Below are positions 8,674 through 22,007 of a stretch of 26,578 bases of DNA, in pieces; position 1 is the stretch's first letter; every line of letters starts with the position of its first letter. Source of the stretch: a virus. The position numbers and the translations under genes were made by a program. Below the pieces are notes generated by a model, which was not told the DNA's origin, ran no database searches, and was given only the letters and a program-made list of their open reading frames with translations. The stretch is taken from positions 1 to 26,578 of IMG/VR virus record IMGVR_UViG_3300030430_002837; one strand, written 5' to 3'.

Positions 8674-8877
8674 ATGAGTAAATTTTTAAAAATGATAACA
8701 AAAATTGGAATTTCAGCACTTGTTAATAAAATAGAAAAAGATAAGGCAAAGTATGCAAAAATTATGGCATCGAAATTTGATATTCCCTATTTGAAAGAAT
8801 CTGATGAAATCTTGCTATGCGAGTCAATCCTTGAACTATTAAATAAATTACCTGAAATAGTTGATGAAAAAGCGTAG
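8674..8877 (+). CDS. Small helical protein, unknown
   Basis: 67 residues, beginning MSKFLKMITKIGISALVNKI, with a lysine-rich amphipathic N-terminal half and an acidic C-terminal helix (ESILELLNKLPEIVDEKA). It starts one base after the previous stop and overlaps the next, strongly basic gene by 14 bases. No family or motif was recognised. It shares its helical character with the gene before it, so the two may act together. Confidence 0.7.
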   Translation: MSKFLKMITKIGISALVNKIEKDKAKYAKIMASKFDIPYLKESDEILLCESILELLNKLPEIVDEKA

Positions 8878-9055
8878 AAAGCGTAGAAAAAGCAGAGTAA
8901 ACGAAGCTGGTAACTACACTAAACCTACTTTAAGAAAGCGATTATTTTACAGAATTAAAGCTGGTTCAAAAGGTGGTAGAGCAGGACAATGGTCAGCAAG
9001 AAAAGCTCAGATGTTAGCTCGTGCTTATAAAAAAGCAGGGGGAGGTTATCGTTAA
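8864..9055 (+). CDS. Small arginine- and lysine-rich protein 1
   Basis: 63 residues from ATG 8864; an in-frame TTG one codon earlier is less likely. The N terminus is a dense basic run (MKKRRKRRKSR). It is followed by a conserved-looking segment, LRKRLFYRIKAGSKGGRAG then QWSARKAQMLARAYKKAGGGY. About 23 of 63 residues are K or R. I recall similar 'WSARKAQ...YKKAGGGY' small proteins from marine phages and large viruses but cannot name the family with certainty. It probably binds nucleic acid or acid surfaces. It is the first of four consecutive strongly basic genes. Confidence 0.78.
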   Translation: MKKRRKRRKSRVNEAGNYTKPTLRKRLFYRIKAGSKGGRAGQWSARKAQMLARAYKKAGGGYR

Positions 9056-9300
9056 TGGCTTTAAAAAGATCACAAAGAAGTTTAAAGAAATGGACTAAGG
9101 AAGATTGGGGTTATATATCTAAAGGTGATAGTAAGAAACCTCGAAGAAAGCGTGGTCGTTATCTTCCGAAGTCAGTCAGGCAGAGTTTAACAAAATCTCA
9201 AAAAGCCTATGAAAATAGGAAGAAAAGAAAAGCATCTGCTAAAGGTAAGCAGAGAGCTAGTTATTCTAAATCAGTCAGAAGAAAAGTAGCAAGGAGATAG
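9055..9300 (+). CDS. Small arginine- and lysine-rich protein 2
   Basis: 81 residues, sharing one base with the upstream stop (TAATG). It contains 18 lysines and 14 arginines against four acidic residues. The core KKWTKEDWGYISKGDSKKP is followed by RRKRGRYLPKSVRQSLTKSQ and a C-terminal tail KQRASYSKSVRRKVARR. The 'KWTKEDWGYxSKGD...KSRGRYLPK' pattern recurs in small proteins of phages and nucleocytoplasmic large viruses as I remember them, usually without a known function. A nucleic-acid-binding or virion-internal role is likely from composition alone. Confidence 0.8.
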   Translation: MALKRSQRSLKKWTKEDWGYISKGDSKKPRRKRGRYLPKSVRQSLTKSQKAYENRKKRKASAKGKQRASYSKSVRRKVARR

Positions 9301-9301
9301 T

Positions 9302-9370
9302 ATGCCATATCATGGAAGCCATAAAGGCAAAAAGAAAAAGAAGATGAAAAAAGGTAAAAAGAAGAAGTGA
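9302..9370 (+). CDS. 22-residue lysine-rich peptide
   Basis: A complete frame, MPYHGSHKGKKKKKMKKGKK plus two more lysines, so 12 of its 22 residues are lysine. It is preceded by a textbook AAGGAG at 9291-9296 with a five-base spacer, better than most sites in the window. It sits exactly in the 76-base gap between two larger basic genes. The SD site and fit to the gap argue that it is translated. Poly-lysine microproteins of this type occur beside similar genes in related phages, as far as I recall, but the role is unknown. Chance A-rich sequence cannot be excluded. Confidence 0.6.
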   Translation: MPYHGSHKGKKKKKMKKGKKKK

Positions 9371-9376
9371 AAATAG

Positions 9377-9637
9377 ATGGCTAAATATAAAGGCAGGACA
9401 GTTCGTCTAAACAAACCTACGAGGATCAGAAAAGGTCAGCCATCTTACGGTAAAAAGAAATCACAAGTTTTTGTTAAGAACTCAAAGGGTAGAGTAATTC
9501 GTGTAACCTTTGGTGATCCGAATATGAGAATTAAGAAGTCTAGTCCGTCTCGTAGAAAATCTTTTAGAGCAAGACATAGGTGTGCAACTGCAAAAGATAG
9601 AACAACTGCTAGATATTGGTCATGTAAGGCTTGGTAA
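9377..9637 (+). CDS. Conserved basic protein with FGDP and WSCK motifs
   Basis: 86 residues, about one third K or R. The N-terminal half is basic and possibly flexible. The C-terminal half reads RVIRVTFGDPNMRIK, then SRRKSFRARHRCATAKDRT and TARYWSCKAW. The 'vtFGDPnMkikk...RRkSFrARH.C....T..YWSCK.W' signature is one I associate with a widespread phage and giant-virus protein, sometimes found with capsid or protease genes. Two cysteines (C69 and C83) and H67 could coordinate metal. The function is unassigned, and a virion-internal or assembly role is inference. It ends one base into the next fibre gene (TAATG). Confidence 0.82.
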   Translation: MAKYKGRTVRLNKPTRIRKGQPSYGKKKSQVFVKNSKGRVIRVTFGDPNMRIKKSSPSRRKSFRARHRCATAKDRTTARYWSCKAW

Positions 9638-14246: not shown

Positions 14247-15272
14247 ATGGCAATTTCAACAGTAGCATTTTCTCCAAAGCAATTTAAAATTGCAATAGCA
14301 GAGCAAGATGCGTTTGGTACTATACAAGGAGCAGGAACATATCATACTCTTGATGTGGATTCTGTTGGTAGCCCTTCACTTAACCCTGTTCAATCATTAG
14401 ACGTAAAGACAGGAAGTAGAGTTTTGCAACAGGCAGATTTTTTTCAATCAGTAACTACATCTGTAAAAGAAATATCAATCTCAGGCACAGCTACTACAAA
14501 TGCTCTTGATTTATTATTAGAGAATATAATAGGAGAAGCAGAAGGTTCTGCAAGTGGTGTTTATAATTTTGCATCAAATGCAGGAACTCAGTCTGTCGGA
14601 ACTGGTGCAACATCACAAGCAGGAACTTTATTATCTGTTATTATTATTTCACCACATACAGGTACAGAAAATTCTAATTTAGCTTTTAAAGATTGCGTTG
14701 TTACTAATTTAACTTTAAACGGAGATATGGGTACAGAAGGTGGTAGAATAAAGTTTTCTGCAACCTTACAGACAGGTTCAGTTGTTGATGACTTGACTGA
14801 TGCAGCTACAGCAATAGCTACTGCATACACAGGAACAGAAAATTACGTTATGACAGATTGGAGTGATCCTGTTTATCGACAATTAGTGGGTGTTAATGAA
14901 TTAGTTATGAATAGCTTTTCTTTAACACTTGATAACCCAGCTTCGTTTGCAGGTGGTACATCAGCAGGATATGAGGTAGTCGTTAGAGCAGGGGAGTTTT
15001 CTGCAACTTTAGATGCTTCTGTAAAATATGATGACAAGACAGAAAATATGTTTGAAGTTTTTAACAATCAAACTTCAGGATCAGATACAGGAACTACCTT
15101 GTTAAATAATGATGACACTTTATCAGATGGTACATTTGGAATACATATGCCTGAGTCAGTATTAACAAATGTTTCTTTTAACGAAGGAGATATTATGATG
15201 CTTGATTTATCTATAAAAGCAGTAGGAACAGCAGTAAATAGTTCAACATCATTAGTTGTGGTATCTTGCTAA
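14247..15272 (+). CDS. Major tail tube protein
   Basis: 341 residues, preceded by AAAGGA. The protein is beta-rich, with the start MAISTVAFSPKQFKIAIAEQ and strands such as VKEISISGTATTNALDLLLE, CVVTNLTLNGDMGTEGGRIK and SVLTNVSFNEGDIMMLDLSI. A tube protein polymerises in rings around the tape measure. Evidence is the place before the chaperone and tape measure genes, the length, and the strand pattern with an 'isG' turn. It is longer than minimal tube proteins, which suggests an added surface domain, possibly within residues 95-230. The gene ends at 15272, where the chaperone ATG begins (TAATG). Confidence 0.82.
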   Translation: MAISTVAFSPKQFKIAIAEQDAFGTIQGAGTYHTLDVDSVGSPSLNPVQSLDVKTGSRVLQQADFFQSVTTSVKEISISGTATTNALDLLLENIIGEAEGSASGVYNFASNAGTQSVGTGATSQAGTLLSVIIISPHTGTENSNLAFKDCVVTNLTLNGDMGTEGGRIKFSATLQTGSVVDDLTDAATAIATAYTGTENYVMTDWSDPVYRQLVGVNELVMNSFSLTLDNPASFAGGTSAGYEVVVRAGEFSATLDASVKYDDKTENMFEVFNNQTSGSDTGTTLLNNDDTLSDGTFGIHMPESVLTNVSFNEGDIMMLDLSIKAVGTAVNSSTSLVVVSC

Positions 15273-15532
15273 TGAAGAAAACTTTAAGCACAAAAAAAGA
15301 AGTAACATTAAAAGATATGTCTATTGATGATATGGATTATTGTAACGACCTACAGCACATCTGTCAAGAGCCTGATGGTGGTATTTCGATCTATGGATTA
15401 AATAAATCTAATACTGCATGGATTAGGCGAGGTGTTGAAGGTTCTGATGATAAGTTTATAAAAGGACTTACAGAAGCCGAGAAAATAGAATTAGTATCTA
15501 TGGTCAAGGCTCACAATACTGTGGGGGAGTAG
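15272..15532 (+). CDS. Tail assembly chaperone, short (G-type) product
   Basis: 86 residues, MKKTLSTKKEVTLKDMSIDD..., from ATG 15272; an upstream in-frame TTG inside the tube gene is less likely. It is small, charged and helical and lies between tube and tape measure, the standard position of the gpG-type chaperone that coats the tape measure before tube assembly. Near its 3' end the DNA reads GTG GGG GAG TAG, a run of five G just before the stop, and an open -1 frame continues beyond. Residues 14-60 contain alternating charged helices and strands with two cysteines. The function call rests on position and the frameshift arrangement. Confidence 0.8.
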   Translation: MKKTLSTKKEVTLKDMSIDDMDYCNDLQHICQEPDGGISIYGLNKSNTAWIRRGVEGSDDKFIKGLTEAEKIELVSMVKAHNTVGE

Positions 15533-15978
15533 CTAGTGTCAAACTGGCGATAAATGTTCATTTATCAACGGTTTGTAATGGTTGTAATTATCACGAGTTT
15601 CCCTATCAGGCAACTCCACCCATATCAGGACAAGGGAGCAAAACATTTAAATCTAAAGAAGATATAGATGATGTTATTGAACAACTTATAAATGAAGCAG
15701 AAGAATGGAATAGAAGGGGAAAGAGTTTTGATGTCGCACTTAGTGTTGCTAAACAACTCCCCTTTTTTTGCTGTCCTAATAAAATATTAAACGCAGAAGA
15801 TCAAAAGGTAATACAAAGATATATTTATTGTAATGAAACAGGCACACAAGCATATAACGGTTCTTACGGAGATCAACCATATAAATGGTTGCAACAGTAT
15901 TTTATCCTCAAACAGGCATTTGCTCAAAAAGAAAAGGCACAGATAGATGGCAGAAGGCAAAATAAGAGTAAAGTTTGA
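15272..15978 (+). CDS. Tail assembly chaperone, -1 frameshift (GT-type) product
   Basis: Translation of 15272-15526 followed by a -1 shift at the G run gives a 235-residue fusion: 85 shared residues and 150 from an open frame ending at TGA 15976-15978. That frame is open from 15454 but has no ATG or GTG and only one late TTG, so it is not independently expressed by a normal start. It covers the otherwise empty stretch 15533-15946. The extension reads GVASVKLAINVHLSTVCNGC, then a region with FCCPN and YCNETG and a helical end WLQQYFILKQAFAQKEKAQ. In lambda-like phages GT recruits the tube protein to the tape measure. The extension overlaps the tape measure start by 32 bases. Confidence 0.82.
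15523..15574 (+). promoter_or_regulatory. Programmed -1 frameshift signal
   Basis: The heptamer G GGG GAG lies at 15523-15529, directly before the zero-frame stop TAG (15530-15532). A P-site tRNA on GGG can re-pair perfectly with GGG one base back. After an 11-base spacer a stem-loop occupies 15541-15574: AAACTG pairs with CGGTTT (one G-U), then a two-by-two internal loop, then a perfect GATAAATG/CATTTATC stem around TT. A slippery run, a near-adjacent stop and a downstream stem are the classic parts of such a signal. The A-site codon re-pairs poorly, so this is not a canonical X XXY YYZ heptamer. Confidence 0.72.
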
Positions 15979-18079
15979 AGAAAAAGATAGCGATAAACTA
16001 ATATCTGCTATTAAAGCATTAAATGTTGAAACTAAGAAATTATCAGGTCAATCATTAAAGTATAGAAAAGAATTAAAAAAACTTGATGGCGATCAACTAA
16101 ATTTAAGAAACAATACAAATATTCTAGGTTCATCTTTTTTAGGTTTTGGTAATATTTTAACATCAGCTCGTGCAAAATTATTACTTTTTGCTTTTGCTAC
16201 AAATCAAGCATCTCAGGTCGTTAATAGCTTAGTAAGAACTAATGCTAATATTGAGGATATGGGTCGTGCTTTTAATAATCTATCTGATGCTGCTGGGTTC
16301 AGTTCTGATACATTTAACAAGCTGAATGAAGCTGTAGATGGTACTGTTAGAAAAACTAATCTTATGCAACAAGCAAACAATGCTATGTTGCTTGGTATCT
16401 TTGAATCATCGGATCAAATGGCAGAAATGTTTGATGTTGCACAGAGATTAGGACAAGCATTAGGTAGAACAGCAAGTGAAAGTATTGAATCGTTAGTAAC
16501 TGGATTAGGTCGGCAATCTAAACTTATGTTAGATAACTTAGGTATTGTTTTCGATACAAATCAGTCCTATGAAGAATACGCAGCAACATTAGGAAAAACT
16601 GCAAGTGCTTTAACAGATCAAGAAAAGAAACAAGCTTTTGTAAACAAGGCTGTAGCAATAGCAAATGATTTAGTAAAACAATCAGGTGAAGAAGTATTAT
16701 CTACTAATGCAAAACTAGATCAACTTTCTGTTTCTTTTGAAAATTTACAAGCACAAATAGGTGAAGGTCTTACACCTGTAGTAATTCTTGCAGTTGAAAG
16801 TTTAACAAAATTTATGGATTCTATTGATGTTGAGGAAATTAAATCTTATAGTGCAGGGTTTGCTTCTGTAGTTACGGTAGTTGGATTATATCAAGCAGCT
16901 ATTACTATAGCGACAATAAAAACTGTAGGATTTTCAAAAGCACTTATTAAAACTGGATTTGGAGCTTTAGCTGTGAGTGCAGGGTTAGCAACAGGTGCAT
17001 TGTTAGATTATTTTAATGTTTTTGATGATGATGATAGACAAGAAGATTTAGCTAAATCTAATAAATCACTTGAATCTTCATTTAAAAACTTAAGAAAAGC
17101 AATTCCTAATAATCAAACCAAAGAATTTAATAGAAGGGTAGAAGAACAAGCTGAAACATTCTTAGCATTAAATCCAACGGTTCAGCAGTTAGAATCTATT
17201 CTTATTAATGTTATGGGAAGTGCAAAGGATTTTAAAATTGGTGATAAAGAGTTTATTACAACACCTCAATCTATTGATGCGATAACAGCAGCTTTAGATA
17301 AGCTAAGAGAGCCTCTTGATGGTGTTTCAGTTACAAAAGTAGGAAACTTTGGTTTTGATGAAGCACAAGAAACTCTTTTATCAGATTTTTTTCTAAAAAG
17401 ACAGAAAACATTAATTGAAAATAACGAATTAGAAAGATCAATTTTAATTGAAGCTGCAAATGCCACAATAGAAGATGAAACTGCTCTTAGACAAGTCTTG
17501 CTTGATATTAATACACATTTTGATGAAAAGGAAAGAAAACAAAAAGAAAAAGCAAAAACTAGATTAATTTCACAAACTTTATCAACTACAGCACAGCTTT
17601 TAGGGATAAATCAAAAAAACATGAAGCACGTTGCAAGGATACAGGCTGCTGCTGGTCTTGTAGATGCTTATTCTGCTGCACAATCTCAGTTTGCTTTGGT
17701 TTCTAAAACATTACCACCACCTTTTCCACAAATAGCTTATGCCGTAGCTATTGGTCAAGGTATTGCACAAGCTCAACAAATAACAAAAGCAGCAGGAACA
17801 CCAATTTTCGAACAAGGTGGTCTAGTAGGTGGAAGAAGGCACTCACAAGGTGGTACTATGATAGAAGCAGAACGAGGTGAGTTTGTTATGAGCAGAAATG
17901 CTGTATCTGCTATTGGTGTTGAGAATTTGAACAGAATGAATCAAGGTCAATCATCAGGAGGTGGTTCTATAAATATAAACATTAACGGTGGTATGATTAG
18001 TCCTGATTTCGTTGAAAATGAATTAGCAGAATCCATCAGAGAAGCAGTAAGACGAGGTGCAGACTTTGGCATTTCTTGA
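15947..18079 (+). CDS. Tail tape measure protein
   Basis: 710 residues. This protein sets tail length and is released on DNA ejection. The N terminus is a charged coiled coil (about 10-55). A hydrophobic stretch lies near residues 60-90 (ILGSSFLGFGNILTSARAKL) and a longer one near 300-355 (FASVVTVVGLYQAAITIATI ... GFGALAVSAGLATGALLDYF), both typical of tape measures that insert in the host membrane. The middle is helical and A/Q/N-rich. The C-terminal part has GGLVGGRRHSQGGTMIEAER then GEFVMSRNAV (about 623-650), a motif shared by many tape measure ends, and a glycine- and serine-rich tail. At roughly 0.15 nm per residue the tail would be near 100 nm long. Confidence 0.92.
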   Translation: MAEGKIRVKFEEKDSDKLISAIKALNVETKKLSGQSLKYRKELKKLDGDQLNLRNNTNILGSSFLGFGNILTSARAKLLLFAFATNQASQVVNSLVRTNANIEDMGRAFNNLSDAAGFSSDTFNKLNEAVDGTVRKTNLMQQANNAMLLGIFESSDQMAEMFDVAQRLGQALGRTASESIESLVTGLGRQSKLMLDNLGIVFDTNQSYEEYAATLGKTASALTDQEKKQAFVNKAVAIANDLVKQSGEEVLSTNAKLDQLSVSFENLQAQIGEGLTPVVILAVESLTKFMDSIDVEEIKSYSAGFASVVTVVGLYQAAITIATIKTVGFSKALIKTGFGALAVSAGLATGALLDYFNVFDDDDRQEDLAKSNKSLESSFKNLRKAIPNNQTKEFNRRVEEQAETFLALNPTVQQLESILINVMGSAKDFKIGDKEFITTPQSIDAITAALDKLREPLDGVSVTKVGNFGFDEAQETLLSDFFLKRQKTLIENNELERSILIEAANATIEDETALRQVLLDINTHFDEKERKQKEKAKTRLISQTLSTTAQLLGINQKNMKHVARIQAAAGLVDAYSAAQSQFALVSKTLPPPFPQIAYAVAIGQGIAQAQQITKAAGTPIFEQGGLVGGRRHSQGGTMIEAERGEFVMSRNAVSAIGVENLNRMNQGQSSGGGSINININGGMISPDFVENELAESIREAVRRGADFGIS

Positions 18080-21000
18080 TGATATAAAAAGTAAACATCT
18101 CACAAATTATGTGTTAGTTACCATTGGCGATAATATTCGAATATCGACTCAAAATATAAATTTTGACGGTGAATATTATAAACCAATTTTAATGAATATA
18201 CCGTCTATTTCTGAATCTTTAGACATAGAGCGAAGAAAGTATAAAATCTCGTCTGTAACGCTAAATATAAGCGATTATGAGCATGATGGTGTTCGATTCT
18301 CCGACAGCCTAAATACATTAATGAATAAAGAAGTTAATATTTATTATGCAAGTATGGGTTCTAAAGAATTTACATTTTTTGGTGATAGTCAAGGAACGAC
18401 AAAAGAAGATGCAGATTTATATAAAGCTGGTACTTTTATTGTTCGTTCATTTAATCAGAATGAAGATACTGTGTCTTTAAATTGTGAGGATTTATCACAA
18501 AAAAATTTACAAACAGAAATACCATTAGTTGAAATGAGTGACAATGAATCTATATTAGAAAAATATAGAAACAAACCTATACCAATGGTTTTTGGTGAAG
18601 TTGATAGAAGTCCATGTGTTTTAGATAGTAAAAAAATTATATTTGATGTAGGAGATGCTACTGATTTATCAGGTATTACAGTAGATGATATTTTTTTTAA
18701 AATAAAAACACCATTATATATATATGATGATGATTCTACTTATAGTAATGTATTGCATGATATAAGTGAAATTTTAACCGAAGAAGAATTTCCATATATA
18801 CAAGAGCAGCAATATATTGATGTTAGTAATCTTGGTTATTTAGAATTAAAAAATACAAAATTATTAAGAAAAGATGGAATACAAGTAAGAAGATTTGCTA
18901 AATCTGCAAGTCCTAATTTATACAATGATAATCAGGTAGAAAACATTGTTGATGCTACAGATATTATAGATAGAGATGGTAATCCTCAAGACACTATAGA
19001 TAACGACAATTCAAGCTATGTATTAGTTCAGGATGCTCAATTCACTACATCTGATGAAGCTGGAGGTATAGATGGTGATTTTAATCCAATCACACTATCA
19101 TTCTTTAGATATTATCGAATGATTATACCTATAGTTAAGGCAAAAGATACTATAGCAAATGGTATTCCTGAAATTGCCATAAATAACAAAAGATTTCCAA
19201 TTCCATTTAATGGACTTTCTGATGAAGGTAGTAATTTTATTAACAATGCTGATAATGAAAATTACATTATTGCTGGTGGTAGTAATGCAGGTAGTTTAAA
19301 TAATGTCTCATTTTTTCCTAATAACTTAGAATCTCATCCATCATCACTTCAAAATTACTCAGATTTGATTATATTTAATGAAACTGAGGTAGGTACTGAA
19401 TTAGGTCAAGGTGAAGCATCTTTAGATCAATTTAATGTAGATATTGGGTTTAAAGATACATCATTCCAAGCAAGTTCAGCAGCTATAGGTTGTTTCGCTA
19501 ATGAACAAATATTTGAATTAGTATTTTTTGCTAAATTGCCACAAACAGCATTATTACCAAGTGGCGAAACATATACATCAGAACTTGTAGCAAGAATTAG
19601 AGAAATAGATACTACATTTATTGCTGATATTGGTGAGCCTCTTAAAAAACATTATTTTGTTCATGCCATTGGTAGGGGTAGCTCAACACCATCAGCACCT
19701 AGTGTATTTACAGAAATCTTATCTGAATTAAATTTTAATCAAGTAGTAGGGGGTATTGATTACACAAGTCTAGGATCATATTCTTTTACGATTGATAAAA
19801 AAATAAACAGCAAGAAATTGATCGAAGAAATAAGTCAAAGCACTAGCTTATACCCATACTTCAAAGACGGTCAATTTAAATTAAAGAGTATAAATAAATC
19901 TTACAGTTTTAATGAAACCAAATCTATAAATCCAGACGATGTAATTAATTATAAATATGATCGTACCAAAATAGAAAAAGTTTACACTCGTGTAAATGTT
20001 AAATATCATTATGACTATGGTATTAAAGATTTTACAAGAGAAACAGGTGATGTTACTCCAACAAATAGTGGTTTAGATTCTGATTATTTAACAGGCTCTA
20101 ATGAGAATTATTTTGGTGAAGATTTCGATCAAGAGTTAATATTTGAGTCTAAATATATCAGAGATGAAGCTACTGCATTTAATTTAGCAAGATATTTGTG
20201 TGGATTACACGCTAATCAGCACAACTTAATAACTCTTACACTACCTTTAAATTATATAACTCTTGAATTAGGCGATATAGTAAGATTAGATAAACTTATA
20301 CAAGGTCGTAAAATATTTGGAGAAGATTACGCTCTAATACATGAAAATCAACCAAGTTATATTCGTAATGGTCAAACTATTTATAAATTCTTTTTTGTTG
20401 AACAAATAAAAAAATCATTAGATAAAGTAGAGGTTAAATTATATCAATTACATGAGTTTGATTTTACTCCTGATGATGTAGGTGTCGATGAAATTGAAGA
20501 TGAAATAGATGATGAAATAGAAGATATAATAGATGACACAGAGCCACCAGTTGATCCACCTCCAAGTGTCATAGAAGCGTGTCTTTTACCTGATTTTGAA
20601 AATTCATATTTAGATGGAAATTTAAATCCTGTTGATGTTACTGATAATTCATTGATTTTTAGTCATAATCAAGATTTATGTGGTAATGAGATAGTTGAAG
20701 AACAAGTCGGTTGGTGTACTATTAATGGTATTCCTGAATTTGGTGTTACAGAATCAGATTGCACAGGTACATGGACTGTAAATCAACCTGTAATTGCTTG
20801 TGGAGATCCTAACGCTTTAAATTACAATTCTAATGTTGATATTGCTGATAATACTCTATGTTTTCTTCAAGAGCCTTTACTATCACCACAGATTACAACT
20901 CCAACTGAGGATGAGGTAATACCGTTACAATCTATTGAGGAAGTAAATCAGCCTGAATTTAATGATAGTGATTGGGTTTGGAATAATAACAGCCAAAATG

Positions 21001-22007
21001 TAGGAAATTTTATAATAGAAGGTGGTAATCAATCAATAATTATAAGACAACCACAATTTGATTTTTCTAAATTTATAAAAATATACCCAAGAGATTTAGA
21101 TGGAAATTTAATACCCATCGAATACGGATCTTATGATTATACTGTGATTGCAAGAAGAGTAAATAATAATAATTTTTCCATAGGTTTAAAGATAGGTTTT
21201 AATTATAATACAGGTAATACTCATAACCTTTCTACTGATTTTAATGAATTTAGTGGTAGTTTTAATGCTTCTAATAATGTTGATATAAATAATGGTTTTT
21301 TTGTTATAAAACAAGGAGCAGGAAATTCGAATAATAATGATAATTCTTTTGAAATATCTACTATTGAAATAAGAAGAAATGGAATTAATCTTATTCCTGA
21401 TCCAAATCGTAACAGTTATTTTTCAAATAATACTGCTGGTGGTATGATAACAGTAGAAACTTCACCTGTTCTTAATCTAACTTGGAATAAATCTCCAAAT
21501 TTATTAAATCACAGCCAATTACCACCAAATTATTTAGGTGGCTCTTACATAGTTAGTTTAGTAAGATCATATAATGATGAAAATGGTGATACACAGCTTG
21601 AAAATGTTTATACTAATGAAAATAATTTAATTAGTGCTGTAGAAGGTCAAGATACATACACACATACAATAGATTTTGTCGAGCAAGATATTCCTGTTAA
21701 TTCAAGACTACAAGTAAGTGTAATTGCTCGTAGTTTTTCACAATATAATGGTCAAAATATTTTTACAGGTGATGCAGATGCAATACTTGATTATACAATA
21801 GCACAAGATACAGTAAATTTTAATTATGGAAATGTAGATGAGGAAGAACAGGCTTATAATGTATCAGATATTGTTATTTTAGTAAATTTTATTTTAGGTG
21901 AGTCTAGTCCAACACAACAAGATTTGGAATTATATGATATTAATAATGATGGAATAATAAATATTCTTGATATTTTAAATTTAGTAAATATTATATTGGG
22001 TAATTAA
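18066..22007 (+). CDS. Giant tail-tip or baseplate protein with dockerin-like C terminus
   Basis: 1313 residues from TTG 18066, chosen because GAGGTG (18054-18059) lies six bases upstream. GTG 18057 in the same frame would add three residues. The N terminus (MAFLDDIKSKHLTNYVLVTI) resembles minor tail proteins that follow tape measures. Residues about 1-170 and 565-790 look like hub beta domains (YSFTIDKKINSKKLIEEISQ, IEKVYTRVNVKYHYDYGIK). An acidic and proline-rich linker spans about 803-836. Next come cysteine-containing modules with ACGDPNALNYN (D914), beta-sandwich regions to about 1250, and a C-terminal dockerin-like repeat (1264-1313) with a Ca2+-loop motif DINNDGIINILDIL. It probably anchors or forms the host-binding tip. 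Confidence 0.85.
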   Translation: MAFLDDIKSKHLTNYVLVTIGDNIRISTQNINFDGEYYKPILMNIPSISESLDIERRKYKISSVTLNISDYEHDGVRFSDSLNTLMNKEVNIYYASMGSKEFTFFGDSQGTTKEDADLYKAGTFIVRSFNQNEDTVSLNCEDLSQKNLQTEIPLVEMSDNESILEKYRNKPIPMVFGEVDRSPCVLDSKKIIFDVGDATDLSGITVDDIFFKIKTPLYIYDDDSTYSNVLHDISEILTEEEFPYIQEQQYIDVSNLGYLELKNTKLLRKDGIQVRRFAKSASPNLYNDNQVENIVDATDIIDRDGNPQDTIDNDNSSYVLVQDAQFTTSDEAGGIDGDFNPITLSFFRYYRMIIPIVKAKDTIANGIPEIAINNKRFPIPFNGLSDEGSNFINNADNENYIIAGGSNAGSLNNVSFFPNNLESHPSSLQNYSDLIIFNETEVGTELGQGEASLDQFNVDIGFKDTSFQASSAAIGCFANEQIFELVFFAKLPQTALLPSGETYTSELVARIREIDTTFIADIGEPLKKHYFVHAIGRGSSTPSAPSVFTEILSELNFNQVVGGIDYTSLGSYSFTIDKKINSKKLIEEISQSTSLYPYFKDGQFKLKSINKSYSFNETKSINPDDVINYKYDRTKIEKVYTRVNVKYHYDYGIKDFTRETGDVTPTNSGLDSDYLTGSNENYFGEDFDQELIFESKYIRDEATAFNLARYLCGLHANQHNLITLTLPLNYITLELGDIVRLDKLIQGRKIFGEDYALIHENQPSYIRNGQTIYKFFFVEQIKKSLDKVEVKLYQLHEFDFTPDDVGVDEIEDEIDDEIEDIIDDTEPPVDPPPSVIEACLLPDFENSYLDGNLNPVDVTDNSLIFSHNQDLCGNEIVEEQVGWCTINGIPEFGVTESDCTGTWTVNQPVIACGDPNALNYNSNVDIADNTLCFLQEPLLSPQITTPTEDEVIPLQSIEEVNQPEFNDSDWVWNNNSQNVGNFIIEGGNQSIIIRQPQFDFSKFIKIYPRDLDGNLIPIEYGSYDYTVIARRVNNNNFSIGLKIGFNYNTGNTHNLSTDFNEFSGSFNASNNVDINNGFFVIKQGAGNSNNNDNSFEISTIEIRRNGINLIPDPNRNSYFSNNTAGGMITVETSPVLNLTWNKSPNLLNHSQLPPNYLGGSYIVSLVRSYNDENGDTQLENVYTNENNLISAVEGQDTYTHTIDFVEQDIPVNSRLQVSVIARSFSQYNGQNIFTGDADAILDYTIAQDTVNFNYGNVDEEEQAYNVSDIVILVNFILGESSPTQQDLELYDINNDGIINILDILNLVNIILGN

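Follow-up and report, generated by a model that had tools for sequence, protein, structure and literature searches.

The sequence analysed here, which we call the window, comprises 26,578 nt of a viral record in IMG/VR. From the source collections we guess that the viruses concerned are marine. The locus of interest lies between a tail tube gene and a tail tape measure gene, and its features are as follows.

14247..15272, + strand: tail tube protein gene (weak Pfam Phage_tube_2 match, and homologues in relatives)
15272..15532, + strand: putative G-like tail assembly chaperone of 86 aa, the zero-frame product (ORF, family alignment, AlphaFold2)
15506..15509, + strand: weak SD-like AAGG, 5´ of the slip site (anti-SD duplex profile)
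15523..15529, + strand: slippery heptamer G_GGG_GAG, with the zero-frame TAG at 15530-15532 directly 3´ (sequence; conserved in relatives)
15523..15978, + strand: T-like domain in the -1 frame, TGA stop at 15976-15978, predicted to give a GT fusion of 235 aa (stop-to-stop ORF, alignment, dN/dS, AlphaFold2)
15540..15575, + strand: putative stimulatory RNA hairpin, stems 15540-15546/15569-15575 and 15549-15555/15560-15566 (fold z, pairing in the clade)
15947..18079, + strand: tail tape measure gene, beginning before T ends (PHROG 3779)

The tube gene matches Phage_tube_2 in Pfam at E 1.2e-4, under the curated cut-off, and its TAA overlaps the start of the G ORF (TAATG), which runs from the ATG at 15272 to the TAG at 15530-15532 and encodes 86 aa. 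The tape measure gene matches PHROG 3779 (tail length tape measure protein) at E 1.5e-8. The order tube, G, T, tape measure is conserved, with a tube homologue 5´ of the slip site in 80 relatives and a tape measure homologue 3´ of it in 82. Between the G stop and the tape measure ATG (15947) lie 414 nt with no zero-frame gene inside. A preliminary description of this DNA had said that the stretch looks empty, as indeed it is in the zero frame, and had put its length at 441 bases, which is the length of the T reading at 15535-15975 and not of the gap. Elsewhere in the window, the 1316-aa gene that follows the tape measure gene (18057-22007) has a dockerin type I-like end (residues 1268-1314, above the Pfam cut-off), which is odd in a phage tail protein and may be a calcium-binding repeat. 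Small, very basic ORFs rich in Lys and Arg (64, 81, about 22 and 86 aa) are found at 8861-9637, between lysis-like and structural genes.

The -1 frame was said to be open from 15454 to 15978 and to lack ATG and GTG. The stop-to-stop ORF, which ends in the TGA at 15976-15978, and the start-codon scan agree with this; the T frame has no ATG, GTG or TTG before codon 122 of T, a TTG near 15889. The open frame is beyond chance: among 3000 dinucleotide shuffles of 15533-15978, none kept a forward frame free of stops. When the T codons of the window are compared with those of three relatives (L002, L003 and L005), dN/dS is 0.16, 0.15 and 0.28, against about 0.85-1.5 for the other frames of the same DNA, a pattern indicating that the T frame is a protein under purifying selection. 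Two profile scans found 275 and 266 viral stretches that encode relatives of T; from each scan the 80 best were kept for locus inspection, and 89 distinct T sequences were compiled from the single-sequence scans and the first profile scan. The T alignment has 25 invariant columns; the short T of L026 reflects only the end of the fetched stretch.

AlphaFold2 models of the two proteins have a mean pLDDT of 84 (T) and 85 (G). Neither has a match in Pfam or to a named PHROG, and fold searches of both against the PDB gave nothing significant. The viral matches in the fold search of T were short unnamed proteins, such as A0A516LCZ5 (E 1e-7, 108 aa, 42% identity), whose shorter lengths would fit T domains clipped by gene callers. 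T found no match in the cultured-phage collection or among species genomes, all of its relatives being uncultivated contigs. A weak PDB profile match (E 0.017) had raised sulfhydryl oxidase as an identity for T, which we discarded, as the fold search gave it no support. T carries an invariant CxxC plus more conserved cysteines, and a metal site is possible.

Several relatives confine the point at which T can be entered. In five of them (L002, L003, L005, L007 and L050) the last -1-frame stop and the zero-frame stop are only 13 nt apart, and in L077 and L108 a -1-frame stop lies directly before GGG. No conserved T start codon was found among the 89 distinct sequences, 53 of which lack ATG, GTG and TTG throughout T codons 1-30, and T conservation begins directly at the heptamer. 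These patterns indicate that translation enters the T frame at the heptamer.

The heptamer G_GGG_GAG at 15523-15529, pointed out in the preliminary description together with the zero-frame TAG directly after it, is present in the sequence, as is the stop. By itself GGGGGAG is not rare in the window (2 found, 1.4 expected); what makes the copy at the slip site significant is where exactly it lies and that it is conserved. The other copy (9038-9044) precedes the ATG at 9055 by 10 nt, an ordinary Shine-Dalgarno place. Loci of relatives were picked by protein similarity, not by the GGGGGAR motif. Where T homology begins, the motif is present in 42 of 42 loci for the single-sequence scans, 80 of 80 for the first profile scan (the best 80 of 275) and 77 of 79 for the second (the best 80 of 266), where the other two have GGGAAAA; the three sets overlap in contigs. 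One locus of the second scan, L177, is truncated by the end of its contig. A supposed exception, L054, was dismissed: its tblastn alignment merely began late, and the GGGGGAR site is present. The 89 distinct sequences divide into 73 with GGGGGAA and 16 with GGGGGAG (the window and 15 others).

The two loci with GGGAAAA, L198 and L200, come from different contigs with identical local sequence. Both read G_GGA_AAA at position 1501 in the same codon phase, have the same downstream stem, and show no T start before codon 90. They represent a natural heptamer swap, from GGGGGAR to the canonical G_GGA_AAA. Only these two follow the canonical X_XXY_YYZ rule, with Watson-Crick re-pairing at non-wobble positions; GGGGGAR departs from it, since the move from GAG to GGA needs a central G-U. 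The A-site codon is solely GAA or GAG across the family, or AAA at the swapped site. Among open-licence papers we found no report that links GGGGGAG with frameshifting, which may be reported elsewhere.

A further constraint falls on the first G of the heptamer, which is the third base of the codon preceding GGG. The codon itself varies (TTG, CTG, ACG, GTG, ATG, AAG, GAG or GGG), so that the amino acid is free, and on the T tree it has undergone at least 21 changes, 14 of them amino-acid changes, with 0 third-base changes. Each of eleven codons further upstream shows 16-25 third-base changes on the same tree, and elsewhere in G a third-base G is used in only 19% of Leu, 13% of Val, 3% of Thr and 8% of Gly (GGG) codons. 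In the -1 frame the triplet is re-paired only, never decoded. Neither protein accounts for the constraint, but re-pairing in the P site does so directly.

Downstream of the heptamer, most relatives have a stem of 7-8 bp that starts within a few bases of it and, in either of two registers, encloses a loop of about 30 nt. Cells of this family stem are paired in 92.7% and 95.8% of cases for the two registers, compared with at most 63.7% and 60.4% when the partners are slid, and its covariation score was reached by 0 of 500 shuffles. Changes are seen on both sides, as at one pair with 17 GC and 11 CG, and L050, which branches off next, retains the stem with several pairs changed. The alignment therefore indicates that a downstream RNA stem is conserved and covarying. 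The window has a hairpin at 15540-15575 (7+7 bp, GUUC loop, MFE -13.2 kcal/mol, z = -2.9; 1 of 200 shuffles folds as well). It had been described as a stem-loop of 34 bases beginning 11 bases downstream; stem-loop and position stand, the first base being the 11th after the heptamer, and the length is 36 nt. With 10 nt in between, it is farther from the heptamer than the stem is in most relatives. In the window clade, 95% of the cells of this hairpin are paired, compared with no more than 45% when the partners are slid, figures that come from five distinct sequences only, for which shuffle controls are weak. In this clade the family stem (CCUCC/GGAGG type) is gone and this different local hairpin stands in its place, so the structure has been replaced between close relatives. 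On the 5´ side, an SD-like peak appears 15-21 nt upstream of the slip site in the family average, and many relatives have AGGA or AAGGAG; in the anti-SD duplex profile the element is weak in the window (AAGG) and missing in its closest relatives.

The arrangement resembles that of phage lambda, whose G attaches to the tape measure while the T part of gpGT recruits the tube subunit (PMC5009743), and where the slip site is G_GGA_AAG (PMC7618472). In both systems the site lies between the tube and tape measure genes and a -1 shift near the 3´ end of G would give a G-T fusion, and the G_GGA_AAA of L198 and L200 is one base off the lambda heptamer. In contrast to lambda, the slip site here is mostly G_GGG_GAR and a downstream stem is conserved; we found no sequence or fold match. 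Tail assembly chaperones are known to diverge widely (PMC5009743). For the heptamer, the closest likeness is to actinophages: GGGGGAA is the 'fivetwo' motif of PRFect, found in about a thousand actinophage tail-chaperone genes, for which the authors invoke G-U re-pairing (PMC10885494). Heptamer and phase are alike there and here, but 'fivetwo' covers only GGGGGAA, whereas the window has GGGGGAG. We checked the sequence of corynephage phi16 gp14/gp14A, which reads GTG_GGG_GAA_GAC_TAA, with GGGGGAA in the same phase; for this phage, an internal SD as well as a downstream structure have been described (PMC5506516). No protein relationship of the phi16 or actinophage chaperones to G or T was found.

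We propose, with a probability of about 0.93, that the locus encodes a lambda-type tail assembly chaperone pair, G (86 aa) and GT (235 aa), made by a programmed -1 ribosomal frameshift. The preliminary description had suggested as much from position, and the conserved heptamer, the selected T frame, the lack of a conserved start, the covarying stem and the synteny all speak for it. In this model, the majority of ribosomes would terminate at the TAG at 15530 and release G. A minority would stall at the hairpin while tRNA-Gly occupies GGG (15524-15526) and tRNA-Glu occupies GAG (15527-15529). Both tRNAs could then move back one base, to GGG and GGA, with the Glu tRNA holding by G-C, a central G-U and A-U, and reading would resume at GTA (15529) so that T is decoded to 15975. 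If lambda is a guide, the two products may go on to coat the tape measure protein and to bring in the tube subunit. We infer slippage itself, its efficiency, the tandem over the single-tRNA mode, and the chaperone role. The last of these is suggested by the architecture, namely position, gene order and two-frame design, because G and T match no named family or solved structure.

The preliminary description had leaned toward slippage of the P-site tRNA near a stop, on the ground that the A-site codon re-pairs poorly. That ground is not supported: when tRNA-Glu (UUC) passes from GAR to GGA, G-C is kept, a central G-U is gained and A-U is present, and use of GGGGGAA has been published (PMC10885494). 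In such a scheme, tRNA-Gly alone would slip on GGG before the A site fills, aided by pausing at the stop, and Gly would replace Glu at the junction. The junction peptide given earlier is accordingly corrected to AHNTVGEVASVK for tandem slippage or AHNTVGGVASVK for P-site-only slippage. Re-pairing from GGG to GGG would be perfect, and the stop adjoins the heptamer in the window, as it does in 38 of the 89 distinct sequences. It is, however, 22 or 28 nt off in the remainder, and 10 nt from the heptamer start in four further members from the second scan. This spread, from 7 nt through 10 and 22 to 28 nt depending on the member, led us to reject the stop as a required stimulator for the family. 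P-site-only slippage also makes no demand on positions 6 and 7, where A and a purine, respectively, are invariant across the family, although the Glu could matter to G. The only natural substitute seen is a tandem-slip heptamer, G_GGA_AAA, and the literature explains GGGGGAA by G-U re-pairing (PMC10885494). We therefore consider slippage of the Gly tRNA alone unlikely, and tandem slippage is favoured.

T could instead be a separate gene, reached by internal initiation or re-initiation with GGGGGAG as its Shine-Dalgarno sequence. The pairing of GGGGGAG with the anti-SD is strong (-8.4 kcal/mol), the copy at 9038 sits in just such a place for its ATG, and L002-L004 carry a T-frame TTG and ATG 14-20 nt downstream. 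Against this, T conservation sets in before any start codon, the window offers none until codon 122, and a Shine-Dalgarno role leaves unexplained both the in-phase G before GGGG and the switch to GGGAAAA. We rejected an independent start, and a Shine-Dalgarno role for GGGGGAG, on the start-codon scan, the in-phase G and the swap, and regard them as very improbable. No more credible is that the run of five Gs marks transcriptional slippage, or a sequencing error or decayed gene, since the same frame layout recurs in independent contigs from many samples with T under purifying selection. RNA polymerase slippage usually requires longer A or T runs, and the phase constraint and the covarying stem implicate the ribosome.

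The programmed frameshift proposed here would be ordinary in kind, a trick well known in phages, but it is well supported. Its value lies partly in assigning a probable function to a family that has no Pfam or named PHROG match and occurs in hundreds of uncultivated viral contigs, and whose T part gene callers would skip or start at an internal codon. The family also provides a clean comparative test of the constraint on a slippery site, with a degenerate position that stayed fixed while its codon changed at least 21 times, and with G-U-dependent and canonical heptamers naturally swapped at one spot. We offer as a speculation of low probability the proposal that G_GGG_GAR slips in tandem with a stable mid-codon G-U, beyond the classical rule, and that in the window branch the adjacent stop adds a termination-linked route, with the Glu-tRNA in the P site and the stop in the A site. 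If that is true, the family would be a natural series in which to measure how heptamer, stop distance and stem are traded off to hold one G:GT ratio.
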